From: Methylobacterium oryzae
Lineage (GTDB): Bacteria; Pseudomonadota; Alphaproteobacteria; Rhizobiales; Beijerinckiaceae
Reading direction: 5' to 3'
Assembly (NCBI RefSeq): GCF_021398735.1
Contig: NZ_CP090349.1
Span: 3,801,001-3,865,000 of the forward strand
Length of the DNA: 64,000 nucleotides
In this document: positions 2,347 through 13,394 of the stretch, one piece after another
Position numbering within the stretch: the first letter of the stretch is position 1
How the letters are laid out: the number at the start of each line of letters is the position of its first letter
Translations under genes and position numbers: made by a program
Notes under the pieces: generated by a model
What the model saw: the letters and a program-made list of their open reading frames with translations, nothing else
Databases searched by the model: none
What the model was told of the DNA's origin: nothing

Positions 2347-2385
2347 GGTCGGGAGCCTAGGGTGCCGCGCGGCCGCTGGCGAGCC

Positions 2386-3456
2386 TCACCCGAACACGTG
2401 CCCGCCGTTGATCCGCAGGCCGACCGGGTGGCCGGCCGGGTAGCGCACGCCGTCGAAGTCCTCCACGGCGAGGACGCGCCCCTCAGCGTCGGCCACCTCG
2501 ATCCGCTGGCGCCCCTGCGTCCGGTACGAGCTGCGCACGGTGCCAGATAGGTGCGCGGCCTCGGGCTCGGCGAGCTGCAGCTGCCAGGGCCGGACGTAGA
2601 GCTTGACCGGGCCGAACAGGCTGGCGGGCGCGGCGACCGGCGTCTCCCGGCCCCGGACCAGCACCCGGCCGCCCTCGGCGATCGCCTCCACCTCGACGGA
2701 ATCGCCCAGGAACTTCATCACGGTGGCGGAGGCCGGGTTCTCCTGCACCTCGTCGGGCGTGCCGACCTGCTCCAGGCGGCCGCGATCGAGCACGGCCACG
2801 CGGTCGGACAGCTCCAGCGCCTCGTCCTGGTCGTGGGTCACGAAGATCGTGGTCTGGCCGGTGCGGTCGTGGATCTCGCGCAGCCAGCGGCGCAGGTCCT
2901 TGCGGACCTGGGCGTCCAGAGCGCCGAAGGGCTCGTCCAGCAGGAGAACCCGCGGCTCGACCGCGAGGGCCCGGGCGAGCGCCACCCGCTGCCGCTGGCC
3001 GCCGGAGAGCTGCGACGGGTAGCGGTCGCCGAACCCGGAGAGGCGGATCAGGTCGAGCAGGTCGCCGACCCGGCGCTTGATCTCGGCCTTGGCCGGCCGG
3101 TCGGCGCGGCGCCGCGCGTTCAGCCCGTAGGCGATGTTGTCGGCCACGCTCATGTGCTTGAACAGGGCGTAGTGCTGGAACACGAAGCCCACGGCCCGCT
3201 CCTGCACCGGCAGGCCGGTGGCGTCGTCGCCGCCGAACAGGATCCGGCCCCGGTCCGGCGCGTCGAGCCCGGCGATGATCCGCAGCAGCGTCGTCTTGCC
3301 CGAGCCCGACGGGCCGAGGAGCCCGATCAGCTCGCCCGCCCGCACGTCCAGCGACAGGTCGTGCAGCACCGCCGCCGTGTCGAACGTCTTCGAGACGTTC
3401 TCGACCCGGATCGCCGTGGAGGGGCGATCAGTGTGCCCGGCCGTGCGCGAGCTCAC
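2386..3456 (-). CDS. cysA: Sulfate/thiosulfate ABC transporter ATPase CysA
   Basis: ATPase subunit that drives sulfate/thiosulfate import. Walker A GPSGSGKT is at about residues 48-55, followed by the Q-loop (VFQHYALF), signature [15 protein letters not shown], Walker [13 protein letters not shown] and the H-loop (FVTHDQ). The C-terminal third is the TOBE-like regulatory domain of CysA. A longer frame to 3558 exists, but its extra N-terminus is a Ser/Pro-only stretch lying over the end of cysW. The GTG at 3456 gives a normal protein of 356 residues that starts shortly before the conserved [10 protein letters not shown]. With this start it overlaps cysW by 29 bp. The exact start is inferred. 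Confidence 0.93.
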
Positions 3457-4309
3457 CCGCGAAGCGCCATTCGAGGACGGATTTGAGGACGAGGGTGATG
3501 AGGGCAAGGACGGCGAGGAGCGAAGCGACGGCGAATGCGGCGACGAAGTTGTACTCATTGTAGAGGATCTCCACGTGGAGTGGGATGGTGTTGGTCAGGC
3601 CGCGGATGTGGCCCGACACCACCGACACCGCTCCGAATTCGCCCATCGCCCGGGCATTGCAGAGGAGCACGCTGTAGAGCAGGCCCCAGCGGATATTGGG
3701 CAGCGTCACCGTCCGGAACGCGTGCAGGCCCGAGGCGCCGAGCGTCAGCGCCGCCTCCTCCTCGGCGGTGCCCTGCTCCTGCATCAGCGGGATCAGCTCG
3801 CGGGCGACGAACGGGAAGGTCACGAACACCGTCGCCAGGACGATCCCCGGCAGGGCGAACAGGATCTGGACGCCGTGGTTGAGGAGCCAGGAGCCGAACA
3901 GGCCCTGGGACCCGAACAGCAGCACGTAGATCAGGCCGGAGACCACCGGAGAGACCGAGAACGGCAGGTCGATCAGGGTGATCAGCAGCGCCTTGCCGGG
4001 AAACTCGAACTTGGCGATCGCCCAGGAGGCGGCCAGCCCGAACACGACGTTGAACGGCACCGCGATCGCCGCCACGGTCAGCGTCAGGCGGATCGCGCTC
4101 CAGGCGTCGGGCTCCCGGAACGCGTCTAGGAATGCCCCGAGCCCCTTCGAGAAGGCCTGGAGGAAGACCGCGAACAGCGGCAGCACCAGGAACAGCGCCA
4201 GGAACGCCACGGCGATCCCGATCAGGACCGCGCGGACGCCGACCCCTTCCGAGGCGACCGGGGCCGGCTTGGCGGCCGGCACGAAGGCGGGGGAGAAGAT
4301 CTCAGACAT
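3428..4309 (-). CDS. cysW: Sulfate ABC transporter permease CysW
   Basis: Inner-membrane permease of 293 residues with about six predicted membrane segments and the BPD_transp_1 coupling motif around [22 protein letters not shown] (EAA loop). It pairs with CysT to form the channel of the sulfate importer. Its start overlaps the end of cysT by 8 bp and its end overlaps cysA, showing tight translational coupling. Order within the operon and the sequence [21 protein letters not shown], typical of CysW, separate it from CysT. Confidence 0.95.
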
Positions 4310-7494: not shown

Positions 7495-10400
7495 ATGACG
7501 GTCCAGGTCTCAAGGCGTGGCCTGCTCAAGGGGGCCGGCGCCGGCCTCGCTGGCGGCTCGCTGGGCGCGCTCGGATTCGGCGGACTCGAGCCCGCCATGG
7601 CCGCCGCGGTGCGGCCGTTCAAGCTCGCGCAGATGCGCGAGACCCGCAACACCTGTCCGTACTGCTCGGTCGCGTGCGGCGTGATCCTCTACAGCCTGGG
7701 GGACCGTTCGAAGAACGCGCGCTCCTCGGTCATGCACATCGAGGGCGACCCGGATCATCCGGTCAACCGCGGCACGCTCTGCCCGAAGGGCTCGGCGCTG
7801 CTCGACTTCGTGCACGCCGAGACCCGCACCAAGTACCCGCTCCACCGCGCCCCGGGTTCCTCCGAGTTCAAGCGCGTGTCCTGGGATTTCGCCCTCGACC
7901 GCATCGCGCAGCTCATGAAGGAGGACCGGGACAAGAACTTCGTGGCCAAGAACGGCGACCTCACGGTCAACCGGTGGACCACGATGGGCTTCCTCGGGGC
8001 CTCGGCCACCACCAACGAGACGGCCTGGCTGACCTACAAGACAGTCCGAAGCATGGGGGCCCTGGTCTTCGATAATCAGGCCAGAGTTTGACACGGTCCG
8101 TCGGTCGCCAGTTTGGCGCCCTCCTTCGGACGCGGTGCGATGACCAACCTCTGGATGGACATCAAGCACGCGGACGTGATCACCGTGATGGGCGGCAATG
8201 CCGCCGAGGCTCACCCCTGCGGCTTCAAGTGGGTCGTGGAGGCGAAAGCCCATAACAATGCCAAGCTGATCGTCGTCGATCCGCGCTTCACCCGTACGGC
8301 GTCGGTGGCCGATCTCTACTGCCCGATCCGGCAGGGGACCGACATCGCGTTCCTGTCGGGGGTGGCCAAGTACCTGCTCGACAACGACAAGCTGCAGCAC
8401 CGCTACGTCTCCGCCTACACCAACGCCGGGTACGTGGTCCGCGAGGGCTACGACTTCAGCGAGGGGCTGTTCACGGGCTACGACGCCGACAAGCGCGACT
8501 ACGACAAGACCACCTGGGACTACGAGATCGGCCCCGACGGCTACGCCGTGGTCGACGAGACGATGCAGCATCCGCGCTGCGTGATGCAGCTCCTGAAGAA
8601 GCATCTCGCGATCTACACGCCCGAGATGGTCGAGAAGATCTGCGGCTCGCCCAGGGAGACCTTCCTGAAGGTCTGCGAGCTGATGGCGACGACGGCTTCC
8701 CCCGAGAAGTCGATGGCCTCGCTCTACGCGCTCGGCTGGACCCATCACTCCAAGGGCTCGCAGAACATCCGCTCGATGTGCATCGTGCAGACGCTGCTCG
8801 GGAACATCGGCGTGCTCGGCGGCGGCATGCAGGCCCTGCGCGGTCACTCCAACATCCAGGGGCTGACCGATATCGGGCTGATGTCGAACCTCATCCCCGG
8901 ATACCTGAACATCCCGGTGGAGAAGGAGCCCGACTACGCGAGCTACATCGCCAAGCGGCAGTTCAAGCCGCTGCGTCCCGGGCAGACGAGCTACTGGCAG
9001 AACTACAACAAGTTCTTCGTCTCGTTCCAGAAGGCGATGTGGGGCGACAAGGCCACCAAGGAGAACGACTGGGCGTACGACTACCTGCCCAAGCTCGACG
9101 TGCCGACCTACGACGTGCTGCGCGGGTTCGAGCTCGCCAAGCAGGGCAAGATGACCGGCTACGTCATCCAGGGCTTCAACCCCCTGCTGTCGTTCCCCAA
9201 TCGCGCCAAGATGACGGAAGCCTTCTCCAAGATGAAGTTCATCGTGGTGATGGATCCGCTCAAGACCGAGACGGCCCGGTTCTGGGAGAATCACGGCGAG
9301 TACAACGACGTCGATCCGACCAAGATCCAGACTGAGGTGTTCGAGCTTCCGACCACCCTGTTCGTGGAGGAGGAAGGCTCGCTGTCGAACTCCAGCCGGT
9401 GGCTGCAGTGGCACTGGCAGGCGCAGGAGGCGCCGGGCGAGTGCCGCTCCGACATCGAGATCATGTCGGAGATCTTCCTCCGCATGAAGGCGGCCTACAA
9501 GAAGGATGGCGGGGCCTTCCCGGACCCGATCGTCAATCTGAAGTGGGATTACGCGATCGCCGAGGCGCCGACGCCGACCGAGCTCGCCCGCGAGCTGAAC
9601 GGCTACACGCTGGCGCCGACGCCGGACCTCAACGGGACGATCATCCCGGCGGGCAAGCAGGTCGACGGCTTCGCCCAGCTCAAGGACGACGGGACGACCG
9701 CCTGCGGCTGCTGGATCTACTCGGGCTGCTACACCGAGAAGGGCAACATGATGGCCCGCCGGGACAACACCGACCCCGGCGACCGCGGCATCGCGCCGAA
9801 CTGGGCCTTCGCGTGGCCGGCCAACCGGCGCGTGCTCTACAACCGCGCCTCGTGCGACCCCGAGGGTCGCCCGTGGTCGGAGAAGAAGAAGCTCATCGAG
9901 TGGAACGGCAAGCAGTGGATCGGCTTCGACGTGCCGGATTACGGCGTCACCGTCGCCCCCGATAAGGGCGTCGGCCCGTTCATCCTGAACCAGGAGGGCG
10001 TCGCCCGCCTGTGGACCCGCGGCCTCATGCGCGACGGGCCGTTCCCGACGCACTACGAGCCCTTCGAGTCCCCGGTGGCCAACCTCGCCTTCCCGAAGAT
10101 CAAGGGCGCGCCCGCGTCCCGCATCTTCAAGGACGACCTCGCCGACCTCGGCGACGCGAAGGAGTTCCCCTACGCGGCGACGAGCTACCGCCTGACCGAG
10201 CACTTCCACGGCTGGACCAAGCACGCCCGGATCAACGCGATCCTCCAGCCGGAGGCCTTCGTGGAGATCTCGGAGGAGCTCGCCAAGGAGAAGGGCATCG
10301 CCAAGGGCGGCTGGGTCCGCGTCTGGTCGAAGCGCGGCTCCCTGAAGGCCAAGGCGGTGGTGACCAAGCGGATCAAGCCGCTGATCTGCGACGGCAAGCC

Positions 10401-10575
10401 CGTCCACGTCGTCGGCATCCCGCAGCACTGGGGCTTCATGGGCCACACCAAGAAAGGATGGCACCCGAACTCGCTGACGCCCGTCGTCGGCGACGCGAAC
10501 ACCGAGACGCCGGAGTTCAAGGCCTGGCTCGTGAACATCGAGCCGACCACGCCTCCGTCGGACGCGGTCGCGTAA
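7495..10575 (+). CDS. fdoG: Formate dehydrogenase-N/O alpha subunit, selenocysteine-containing
   Basis: Catalytic Mo/W-bis-MGD subunit (FdnG/FdoG type; the fdh3A type of methylotrophs), 1026 residues counting selenocysteine. It oxidises formate to CO2 on the periplasmic side and passes electrons to the beta subunit. The ATG at 7495 has GGAG six bases before it. A Tat signal (SRRGLLK, residues 6-12) precedes the [4Fe-4S] cysteines C54, C57, C61 and C96. The frame is interrupted only by TGA at 8089-8091 (residue 199), in the context NQARV-TGA-HGPSVASLAP, exactly where E. coli FdnG has Sec196-His197, and a SECIS hairpin follows. The frame then continues through VMGGNAAEAHP, LRGHSNIQGLTD and LTEHFHGWTKHA to the stop. 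Automated calls would split it at the TGA. Operon: fdoG-fdoH-fdoI-fdhE. Confidence 0.95.
8089..8121 (+). promoter_or_regulatory. UGA selenocysteine codon with bacterial SECIS hairpin
   Basis: Numbering from the U of UGA (8089), the stem pairs G15-G16 with C31-C32 and C18-C21 with G27-G30. U17 (8105) is bulged and the 5-base apical loop contains G23-U24 (8111-8112). The bulged U17 and G23-U24 are the SelB-binding determinants of the E. coli fdhF/fdnG SECIS and fall at identical positions here. This makes decoding as selenocysteine, not termination, the best reading. Confidence 0.93.
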
Positions 10576-10590: not shown

Positions 10591-11523
10591 ATGGCTGACT
10601 ACAGCTCCCTCGACATCCGCCAGCGCTCCGCCTCCACGGAGACGCCGCCGGAGATCCGCCGTCAGGTGGAGGTCGCCAAACTCATCGACGTGTCGAAGTG
10701 CATCGGCTGCAAGGCCTGCCAGTCGGCCTGCGAGGAGTGGAACGACCTGCGCGACGACATCGGTGTCAACACGGGCACCTACCAGAACCCCCACGACCTC
10801 ACGCCGAAGTCGTGGACCCTGATGCGGTTCACCGAGTACGAGAACCCGGAGACCAACAACCTCGAATGGCTGATCCGCAAGGACGGCTGCATGCACTGCA
10901 CCGAGCCGGGCTGCCTGAAGGCCTGCCCGTCCCCCGGCGCGATCGTGCAGTACTCCAACGGCATCGTCGACTTCATCGAGGAGAACTGCATCGGCTGCGG
11001 CTACTGCGTGAAGGGCTGCCCCTTCAACATCCCGCGCATCAGCCAGACCGACCACAAGGCGTACAAGTGCACCCTGTGCTCGGACCGGGTGGCGGTGGGT
11101 CAGGCCCCGGCCTGCGCCAAGGCCTGCCCGACCGGTTCGATCATGTTCGGCACCAAGCAGGCCATGATCGATCAGGCCCACGACCGCGTCGAGGACCTGA
11201 AGTCGCGCGGCTTCGCCCATGCCGGCCTCTACGACCCGGCCGGGGTCGGCGGCACGCACGTCATGTACGTGCTGCACCACGCCGACCAGCCGAACCTCTA
11301 CGCGGGCCTGCCGAACGACCCGAAGATCTCGCCGCTGGTCGCCTTCTGGAAGGGCGGCGCCAAGGTGTTCGGTCTCGCCGCGATGGGCTTCGCGGCGGTG
11401 GCGGGCTTCTTCCACTACGTCACGGCCGGCCCCAACGAGGTCGTGCCCGAGGAGGAGGAAGAGGCGGTCGAGTACGACGAGGCCAAGCGCCGGGAGAATG
11501 GCGGGGAGGCCCGGCCGCACTGA
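10591..11523 (+). CDS. fdoH: Formate dehydrogenase beta subunit (four [4Fe-4S] ferredoxin-like)
   Basis: Electron-transfer subunit of 310 residues (FdnH/FdxH type). Four Cys clusters are visible: [35 protein letters not shown] and CTLCSD with CAKACPTGS. Near the C-terminus a single membrane helix ([20 protein letters not shown]) anchors it, followed by an acidic tail ([13 protein letters not shown]). It takes electrons from FdoG and hands them to haem b in FdoI. It follows fdoG by 15 bp with GGGGGAGCGG as ribosome-binding site. Confidence 0.96.
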
Positions 11524-11671: not shown

Positions 11672-12394
11672 ATGACGATCCAGAACGATGTCCGGGACGG
11701 CGATTCCCGCCCCCTCCACCACGCCAAGTCCGAGGCGCCGGAGGTGATGTACGTCCCGCGCTACACCGGCGTGCAGCGCGTGAATCACTGGATCACCGCG
11801 ATCCTGTTCACGCTGCTGACCCTCTCGGGGCTGGCGATGTTCACGCCCTACCTGTTCTCGCTGACCGGCCTGTTCGGCGGCGGGCAGGCGACCCGAGCGA
11901 TCCACCCGTGGTTCGGCGTGGCGCTGGCGATCAGCTTCCTCTTCCTGTTCGTGCGCTTCTGGCGGCTCAACATCCCCAACAAGGACGATGTCGAGTGGTC
12001 GAAGAAGATCGGCGACGTGGTCACCAACCGCGAGGACCGGCTGCCGGAGCTCGGCAAGTACAATGCCGGCCAGAAGGGCGTGTTCTGGGGCCAGACCGCG
12101 CTGATCGGCGTGATGTTCGTGACCGGCCTCGTGATCTGGAACACCTATTTCGGCGGCCTCACCTCGATCGAGACCCAGCGCTGGGCGCTGCTCGCGCACT
12201 CGCTGGCCGCCGTCATCGCCATCGCGATCATCGTGGTGCACGTCTACGCCGGCATCTGGGTGCGCGGCACCGGCCGGGCGATGGTCCGCGGCACGGTCAC
12301 GGGCGGCTGGGCCTACCGGCATCACCGCAAGTGGTTCCGTCAGATGGCCGGCGGCCCGGCGCGCCGCGGCTCGGTGGACAAGCGCGGATCCTGA
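11672..12394 (+). CDS. fdoI: Formate dehydrogenase gamma subunit (cytochrome b556)
   Basis: Membrane subunit of 240 residues with four predicted helices: HWITAILFTLLTLSGLAMF, WFGVALAISFLFLFVRFW, FWGQTALIGVMFVTGLVIW, and LAHSLAAVIAIAIIVVHVYA. Conserved histidines in helices 1, 2 and 4 (VNHWIT, AIHPWF, AHSLA, VHVYAG) are suited to bind the two b haems and quinone site of the FdnI family. It reduces membrane quinone with electrons from FdoH. The C-terminus is basic. It is separated from fdoH by 148 bp holding a hairpin. Confidence 0.94.
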   Translation: MTIQNDVRDGDSRPLHHAKSEAPEVMYVPRYTGVQRVNHWITAILFTLLTLSGLAMFTPYLFSLTGLFGGGQATRAIHPWFGVALAISFLFLFVRFWRLNIPNKDDVEWSKKIGDVVTNREDRLPELGKYNAGQKGVFWGQTALIGVMFVTGLVIWNTYFGGLTSIETQRWALLAHSLAAVIAIAIIVVHVYAGIWVRGTGRAMVRGTVTGGWAYRHHRKWFRQMAGGPARRGSVDKRGS

Positions 12395-12398
12395 TCGC

Positions 12399-13394
12399 GT
12401 GGCCAACTTCTTCAGGCGGAAACCCGCGGCTCCGGCCGCGGACAAGACCCCGAAACCCGCCGAGGCCCCGAAGCCCCGCCGCCGGGATTTCAGCGAGCTC
12501 AAGCCCGATCCCGACAAGATCGGGATCTCGGGCTCGGTCCCGTTCGTGCGCCTGCCCGATCCCGCGACGCTGTTCGCCGACCGGGCCGCGCGCCTGGCGG
12601 AGGCCGCGCCCGGGCACCCGCTGGAGGCCTATCTCCGGTTCGTCGGTGAGGTCGCCCGCGCCCAGGCGGCGATCCAGGCACGGTTTCCGGCCCCGCCGGC
12701 GCCGGATCCCGCCGATCAGGCGCTGCGGAGCGAGCACGGCATGCCGCCGCTGTCGCGGCACAGCCTCGAGGCCGACCAGGATTTCGACGCGTGCCTCCTG
12801 GCGCTGCTCGACGCGCTGGATCTCGCGACCGCGCCCGAGGCCTCGGCCGCGGCGCGGGATGCCCTGCGGGCCGCCGCGCCGGAGGAGCGCCGCGATCTCG
12901 CCGTGCAGGTTTTTGAGGGCGCGCTGCCGGTCGACCGGATCGCCGAATGCCTGTTCGTCTCAGCCGCGTTGCAGGTGCGCTTCGCCGAGCGGGCCGCGCG
13001 CCTCGACACGCGGACGCTGAAGCCCGTCGCGGACGGCGTCTGCCCGTGCTGCGGCGGCGCGCCGGTGGCGAGCGTCATCGTCTCCTGGACCCCGGCCGAC
13101 AAGGCCCGGTATCTCAGCTGCTCAGTCTGCGGCACGTACTGGAACCACGTCCGGATCCGCTGCACCGCCTGCGGTGACGGCGAGAACGTGAGCTATTACG
13201 GGCTCGATGAGGTCTCGAAGGACGTTCAGGTCGAGACCTGCACGACCTGCCACAGCTACATCAAGCACCTCCACCAGCACCGGGCGCCGGCCCTCGACCC
13301 GGTGGCGGACGACATCGCGTCCTACGGGCTCGATCTGAAGATCGCCGAGGACGGGTTCCGGCGCGCCGGATTGAACCTGCTGTTCGTGATCTAG
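12399..13394 (+). CDS. fdhE: Formate dehydrogenase accessory protein FdhE
   Basis: Cytoplasmic assembly factor of 331 residues needed for respiratory formate dehydrogenase maturation. The GTG start at 12399 lies 4 bp after fdoI. The C-terminal half carries four CxxC motifs (CPCC, CSVC, CTAC, CTTC), the iron-binding rubredoxin-like signature of FdhE, and GVCPCCGGAPVASV is typical. The N-terminal extension is Lys/Pro/Ala-rich. It completes the formate operon. Genes for selenocysteine synthesis and insertion, which accompany this operon in some rhizobia, are not next to it. Confidence 0.95.
   Translation: MANFFRRKPAAPAADKTPKPAEAPKPRRRDFSELKPDPDKIGISGSVPFVRLPDPATLFADRAARLAEAAPGHPLEAYLRFVGEVARAQAAIQARFPAPPAPDPADQALRSEHGMPPLSRHSLEADQDFDACLLALLDALDLATAPEASAAARDALRAAAPEERRDLAVQVFEGALPVDRIAECLFVSAALQVRFAERAARLDTRTLKPVADGVCPCCGGAPVASVIVSWTPADKARYLSCSVCGTYWNHVRIRCTACGDGENVSYYGLDEVSKDVQVETCTTCHSYIKHLHQHRAPALDPVADDIASYGLDLKIAEDGFRRAGLNLLFVI

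Follow-up and report, generated by a model that had tools for sequence, protein, structure and literature searches.

The systems closest to the one considered here are the FdnGHI formate dehydrogenase (FDH) of E. coli (1KQF) with its selenocysteine insertion sequence (SECIS), the fdoGHI-selABCD clusters described in Rhizobiales (PMC8124441), and the binding proteins SaoX, SaoB, and BtuF, which are named as selenocysteine (Sec)-containing in tables of selenoproteins (PMC9312934, PMC13188914). A stretch of 64,000 nucleotides from Methylobacterium oryzae (contig NZ_CP090349.1, positions 3,801,001 to 3,865,000; referred to at its full length as the window) contains an FDH gene of the FdnG type with a UGA codon at the position of Sec, and the genome to which it belongs has two genes for SelB. 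One cell most likely houses two UGA-recoding channels on a single supply of Sec-tRNA: one for FDH, and another for SBP-U, the name used here for a protein with the SBP_bac_5 fold that, judged from its sequence and surroundings, is probably a new selenoprotein family with a dedicated SelB.

The FDH gene, its UGA codon, and the element that follows it lie in the window as listed:

7495..10575, + strand: predicted Sec-containing formate dehydrogenase N alpha subunit, FdnG type, with a single in-frame TGA (NCBIfam TIGR01553, 1414.2 bits against a cut-off of 814.2; full-length alignment with 1KQF)
8089..8091, + strand: predicted UGA Sec codon, residue 199 of FdnG, from alignment to Sec of E. coli FdnG and from genus homologues
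8086..8144, + strand: SECIS element, Rfam RF01989 (SECIS_3), 63.9 bits against a gathering score of 63, E 1.3e-12

The frame is open apart from this one TGA, which occupies codon 199 in the context NQARV-U-HGP; read through, it encodes 1026 residues, and U199 coincides with the Sec of E. coli FdnG (1366.6 bits, residues 4-1017). Translated with table 11, the interval yields 198 residues from the ATG and an open reading frame (ORF) of 820 residues. The 111 genomes of the genus contain 38 close FDH homologues (at least 87% identity), of which 37 carry the TGA; the remaining one, in G068, reads TNA and thus has an ambiguous base at the Sec codon. The G068 gene had been flagged as stop-free, and a Sec-to-Cys replacement in it is ruled out by the TNA codon.

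SECIS_3 is the sole Rfam match at gathering scores in the window. Counting the U of UGA as 1, the hairpin has a bulged U17 and a loop that opens with G23-U24; the same geometry is seen in E. coli fdnG folded alongside. Across 18 homologous genes, which a pattern picked out from 30 loci, no change is seen in the 19 codons that follow the TGA (+1 to +19), among them the rare codons GGT, AGT, TTG, and GGA; the rare-codon score of codons +4 to +15 is surpassed by 2 of 1015 such intervals of the gene. SECIS_3 is present in 40 of the 111 genomes, 37 of them above the cut-off. An earlier note on this DNA had proposed a single interrupting TGA at the FdnG Sec position, a hairpin with this bulge and this loop, and standard gene calls of 198 and 820 residues; the reading frame, the full-length alignment, the fold combined with a SECIS_3 match above the gathering score, and the table-11 translation bear it out. 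Together these results support a Sec-dependent FdnG-type FDH in which UGA 8089 is a genuine codon for Sec, with insertion itself predicted from the gene and its hairpin; this Sec-FDH is an ordinary member of a well-known kind found in many bacteria.

The Sec machinery of the genome is encoded at the following places:

C1:1164329-1165444: selA
C1:3337251-3337339: tRNA-Sec (selC), anticodon TCA, 74.6 bits
C1:1264337-1265266: selD, the only one above the cut-off
C1:197233-199116 and C1:1690916-1692778: two full-length selB genes (TIGR00475, 367.7 and 261.3 bits against a cut-off of 242.25)

selA, the strong tRNA-Sec, and selD are each single and, with the two selB genes, are dispersed along contig C1. 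Both SelBs match TIGR00475 over their length as well as PF09107, that is, an EF-Tu-like GTPase part and a winged-helix C terminus. All of the sel genes for which the earlier note had recommended a search were thus located, selB twice. The note had named missing sel genes, or Cys in the homologues of close relatives, as grounds for abandoning its reading; neither holds, because the sel genes are present and the close homologues carry TGA in 37 of 38 cases and Cys in none. It was right that the organism is a selenoprotein user but gave an incomplete account, to which a further candidate selenoprotein and the extra SelB have to be added. Directly after selA lies an OhrR-like regulator gene (L124 8653-9123).

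SelB was found in 48 of the 111 genomes, and tRNA-Sec above 70 bits in 47. M. nodulans appears as an orphan-SelD organism in passages of two papers (PMC5029168, PMC5322559). G038:C1 (L128) has a Sec-FDH with TGA that matched over residues 1-926 only and is disrupted beyond; neither a SelB match nor a strong tRNA-Sec was found in G038, in which the Sec trait appears, from these sequences, to be decaying. In G010:C115 (L136) a tRNA-Sec (2247-2340, - strand, 59.8 bits) lies beside a SelB-like ORF of 446 residues (2349-3689, - strand) with the motif GHADHGK, and a search for selB at E 1e-60 gave no match in this genome; its Sec system is possibly decaying or aberrant.

A bacterium with two SelBs calls for an explanation. 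A binding-protein gene beside one class of selB (type A, defined below) is repeatedly split in two at one site by gene calling. The SBP-U gene of this genome, which is unannotated, has 495 codons (C1:199177-200661) and one in-frame TGA (Sec167) in the context AEGHW-U-VIDAPGPWGTGPF, with coding signal on both sides of it; one of the two selB genes, of type A, lies just behind it. SBP-U is found in 21 of the 111 genomes, and each of the 22 matches has exactly one TGA at one place. Copies outside the genus retain it as well: those of a Rhodospirillales assembly (L200), of G888, and of G966, whose two copies include L199; in other genera it persists down to 51% identity. In the wider samples, where scoring was confined to a few top candidates from each genome and weak relatives can be missed, SBP-U was found in this genome alone among 385 genomes of the class and 397 of the order, and in 3 of 298 of the family, this genome included; one plasmid record of 72,556 contains it. 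One of the 22 genus matches, in G084:C99:1369-1977, is a remnant (residues 1-203, TGA included) without a type A SelB and represents a decayed cassette.

Annotation would miss the SBP-U family because it is cut at the UGA. For plasmid pNYY1_1 of M. radiotolerans, the gene table, which omits pseudogenes, includes the flanking regulator and selB, and SBP-U is absent. Three database searches, one of which listed 120 of its 244 matches, gave 192 homologues: in a motif test 188 stop short of the region 5' of the TGA position, three span it with Gln (P0124, P0125, and P0131), and P0195 is too distant for judgement; no Cys homologue is among the 192 matches listed. Some of the homologues that end at the TGA position carry the source labels Actinomycetota or Acidobacteriota, which suggest a family spanning several phyla, cut at UGA in databases, with Sec presumably in these members as well.

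The SBP-U TGA is followed by UGAGUCAUCGACGCGCCUGGUCCGUGGGGGACUGGC, which folds into a hairpin of five base pairs with a single bulged base and GU at the start of its loop. This hairpin lies about one base farther from the UGA than does the FDH SECIS; either U or C is bulged, and copies of the Methylorubrum type pair in a shifted stem register. No Rfam SECIS family matched at SBP-U up to E 5 (L122 9900-10400). Covariance model R1, based on 14 SBP-U copies, finds a single site in this genome, which is SBP-U, and misses the FDH SECIS.

SelBs of the genus fall into two main types. A tree of 68 SelBs (67 sequences from 48 genus genomes, and E. coli) separates type B (45 genes from 45 genomes) from type A (21 genes from 20 genomes), and a single G069 gene belongs to a third class. 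By BLASTP, the type A and type B proteins of this genome are 42% identical across their first 356 residues and show no other match of substance. The types also differ in the last winged helix, the part that reads the SECIS in SelB structures: this helix has R-N or R-H in 21 of 21 type A proteins (20 by pattern, G029a by eye), and R-K in 45 of 45 type B proteins, in E. coli, and in G069_C21a. SelBs linked to SBP-U (the 21 of the genus with L199, L200, and G888) form one clade with a support of 0.995; in G888, which belongs to another genus, the SelB encoded next to selA has R-K and the one immediately following SBP-U has R-N.

Co-occurrence follows the same division. The 20 genus genomes with an intact SBP-U are exactly the 20 with a type A SelB, and two of these (G046 and G101) have no type B and no close FDH homologue (E 1e-100). 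A close Sec-FDH is found in 36 of the 45 type B genomes; G013, G047, and others have a second Sec-FDH or FDH-like gene. This second FDH type, seen in L133, L134, and L135 (G047, G013, and G103), is about 43% identical and has the context NIENQARI-U-HSSSVPSLG and a weak SECIS_3 match; on close inspection of these three genomes, the more distant gene likewise has TGA at the Sec position. G041 (C56, C61, and C48) has three SelBs: two of type A, each paired with an SBP-U, and one of type B.

The type A selB begins 58-84 nt past the end of SBP-U, with both genes on one strand, in 18 genomes (19 copies). In G046 and G101 (L129 and L130), selB is divergent from SBP-U and about 2.35 kb away, in an island with selA, tRNA-Sec, genes for a putative selenate ATP-binding cassette (ABC) binding protein, PhnC-/PhnE-like genes, and genes for a cytochrome c, a TlpA/ResA-like thioredoxin, and a DsbD-like protein; selD is found in L129/L203. 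The putative selenate ABC transporter of this Methylorubrum island (L129 6039-9161), to which the PhnC-/PhnE-like genes belong, comes directly before selB, and its binding protein matches TIGR04553 with 335.5 bits against a cut-off of 250; the family searches on the island covered L129/L203.

Nineteen SBP-U copies lie in 13 downstream neighbourhoods, and one copy is on a plasmid typed as mobilizable. Pairwise distances of SBP-U correlate with those of its own SelB (19 copies; r 0.54, a value reached by 0 of 2000 permutations); the comparison with FDH gives r 0.09 (416 of 2000 permutations, 15 genomes). Every genus genome that carries SBP-U has a tRNA-Sec above 70 bits. In its distribution, the SBP-U/type A unit resembles a small cassette that depends on its host for Sec-tRNA. 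On balance, the evidence favors a mobile two-gene cassette, made up of an undescribed selenoprotein family and its own SelB with an altered last winged helix and brought into hosts already equipped with Sec-tRNA, and separate UGA-recoding channels for FDH and SBP-U.

In the proposed mechanism, Sec-tRNA made by SelA and SelD would be brought by SelB, which reads the SECIS after UGA 8089; the resident type B SelB would serve FDH. SBP-U and type A SelB would form the second channel, drawing on the same Sec-tRNA and a different SECIS-like hairpin. The sequences themselves establish the two genes with their TGAs, the two SelBs, the single strong selA, selC, and selD, the linkage and co-occurrence, the SelB clade, and the helix difference. 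We infer Sec insertion at both sites, the division of labor between the SelBs, and the role of SBP-U; for SelB specificity the argument proceeds from linkage, co-occurrence, and the helix difference. As an explanation of the whole, a Sec-containing FdnG together with an SBP-U/type A channel beside the type B channel has good probability.

Several observations weigh against this explanation. The energy of the 45-nt FDH hairpin alone is ordinary (z -0.92; 33 of 200 shuffles fold at least equally well), as is that of the SBP-U hairpin (z -0.63; 47 of 200 shuffles equally good). Covariation in the SBP-U hairpin is weak, with a single two-sided change, from C12-G39 to U-A, seen in L200 and L212. 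Behind the SBP-U TGA, synonymous variation is low without being exceptional, as 39 of 380 intervals have less. Those non-Sec relatives of SBP-U that are nearest to it and full-length carry Gln, not Cys, at the Sec position. Nine of the 45 type B genomes are without a close Sec-FDH, and no client for type B was found in G012 and G098, where the stretches around selB and tRNA-Sec were scanned, or in G078, where no such scan was made. G108 has Sec-FDH and SelB and no tRNA-Sec above 70 bits; this is a draft of 420 contigs, 94% complete.

The two SelBs could instead be interchangeable, type A being a passenger co-transcribed with SBP-U and either protein decoding both UGAs. Both exceed the SelB equivalog cut-off over their whole length, and both hairpins have a bulge and a loop starting with GU; but no genus genome has an intact SBP-U without type A, or type A without an intact SBP-U, their distances correlate, with none of 2000 permutations reaching r 0.54, and the helix position differs consistently between the classes, so that this alternative is unlikely, if still to be reckoned with. 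A division of labor between type A and type B is preferred to it. Reading the window TGA as a recent point mutation in an FDH pseudogene is an idea to which hardly any weight can be given: nothing but the interrupted frame speaks for it, apart from G038, which demonstrates that such genes can decay, but 37 of 38 close homologues have the TGA, the SECIS scores above the gathering score, and the sel genes are present.

For SBP-U itself, the TGA might be a true stop, leaving a pseudogene or a shortened product, in keeping with the omission of the gene from standard annotation of pNYY1_1 and with databases that keep the downstream piece as a separate protein. The TGA stands at one place in 22 genus matches and in other genera to 51% identity, with coding signal on either side and SelB directly behind, and a true stop is therefore very improbable. 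It is slightly less probable still that the UGA is read as another amino acid, e.g., Cys by way of a special tRNA and a non-canonical SelB. The genome does have two SelBs to one strong tRNA-Sec, and a tRNA-Cys/SelB case has reportedly been described in another system; however, the 16-kb stretches that surround the two selB genes contain no tRNA according to ARAGORN, and type A SelB adjoins selA and tRNA-Sec in G046 and G101. Sec at the SBP-U UGA, delivered by type A SelB, is thus the reading retained here.

SBP-U matches PF00496 (112.9 bits against a cut-off of 32.4), and its fold matches GsiB, DppA, and NikA. Two AlphaFold models, from 33 and 19 sequences, have a mean predicted local distance difference test score (pLDDT) of 77.4 and 76.9, and the Sec loop is below 50 in both. 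The protein of this genome looks cytosolic because no signal peptide is visible by eye; the Methylorubrum copies have an exported-looking N terminus, also by eye, and a thioredoxin gene nearby. An OhrR-like regulator gene lies directly upstream of SBP-U in 7 of 21 distinct loci, and two OhrR-like genes that were tested are both below the OhrR family cut-off. From the OhrR-like neighbors and the Methylorubrum thioredoxin neighbor comes a guess, held with low confidence, that SBP-U has a role in thiol/selenol redox, peroxide, or soft-metal function.

The remaining features of the FDH locus in the window are as follows:

7510..7527, + strand: SRRGLL, a putative twin-arginine-like export motif at the FdnG N terminus, read off the translation
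10591..11523, + strand: fdnH, iron-sulfur beta subunit (TIGR01582, 464.4 bits against a cut-off of 334.7)
11672..12394, + strand: fdnI, cytochrome b gamma subunit (TIGR01583, 181.2 bits against a cut-off of 115.85)
12399..13394, + strand: fdhE, formate dehydrogenase accessory protein (TIGR01562, 253.8 bits against a cut-off of 187.65)

fdnH, fdnI, and fdhE form an operon-like array on the same strand 3' of the FdnG gene; the FdnG product would act in an FdnGHI membrane complex, with FdhE as a maturation factor.

If this account is true, the genome provides a natural pair of SelB-SECIS systems with different specificity in one cell, which would be of use in understanding and engineering Sec insertion, and a further selenoprotein family in which the nearest relatives without Sec carry Gln, and not Cys, at that position. 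It would also mean that the use of Sec spreads as a small unit that borrows the Sec-tRNA of its host, and not as a whole pathway.

Compared with E. coli FdnGHI (1KQF) and its SECIS, the FDH is alike in subunits, Sec position, and SECIS geometry, with no essential difference; selA and selB are adjacent in E. coli, whereas the sel genes of this genome are dispersed over the chromosome. With the fdoGHI-selABCD clusters of Rhizobiales (PMC8124441), the genome shares an alphaproteobacterial Sec-FDH and SelABCD, but its genes are unlinked, selC is apart from selB, and there are two selB. SBP-U is 17-19% identical to GsiB (1uqw), DppA, and NikA in the alignments made with these SBP_bac_5 proteins, and it has a UGA codon in a conserved loop; in the copy of this genome, inspection by eye shows no signal peptide and no adjoining permease gene. 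SaoX, SaoB, and BtuF (PMC13188914) are, like SBP-U, predicted to contain Sec and to serve as solute-binding proteins; SBP-U matches PF00496 only and neither the SaoX nor the SaoB models (NF040735 and NF040727) at E 0.001; the prokaryotic selenoprotein family tables of PMC9312934 and PMC13188914 hold no PF00496 entry. Judged from search listings, the open-licence literature has nothing like the two SelBs or a binding-protein selenoprotein of this kind. Type A SelB aligns with E. coli SelB (5lzb) over its length; compared with bacterial SelB as modeled by TIGR00475, there are two per genome here, and the K of the last winged helix is replaced by N or H in type A.

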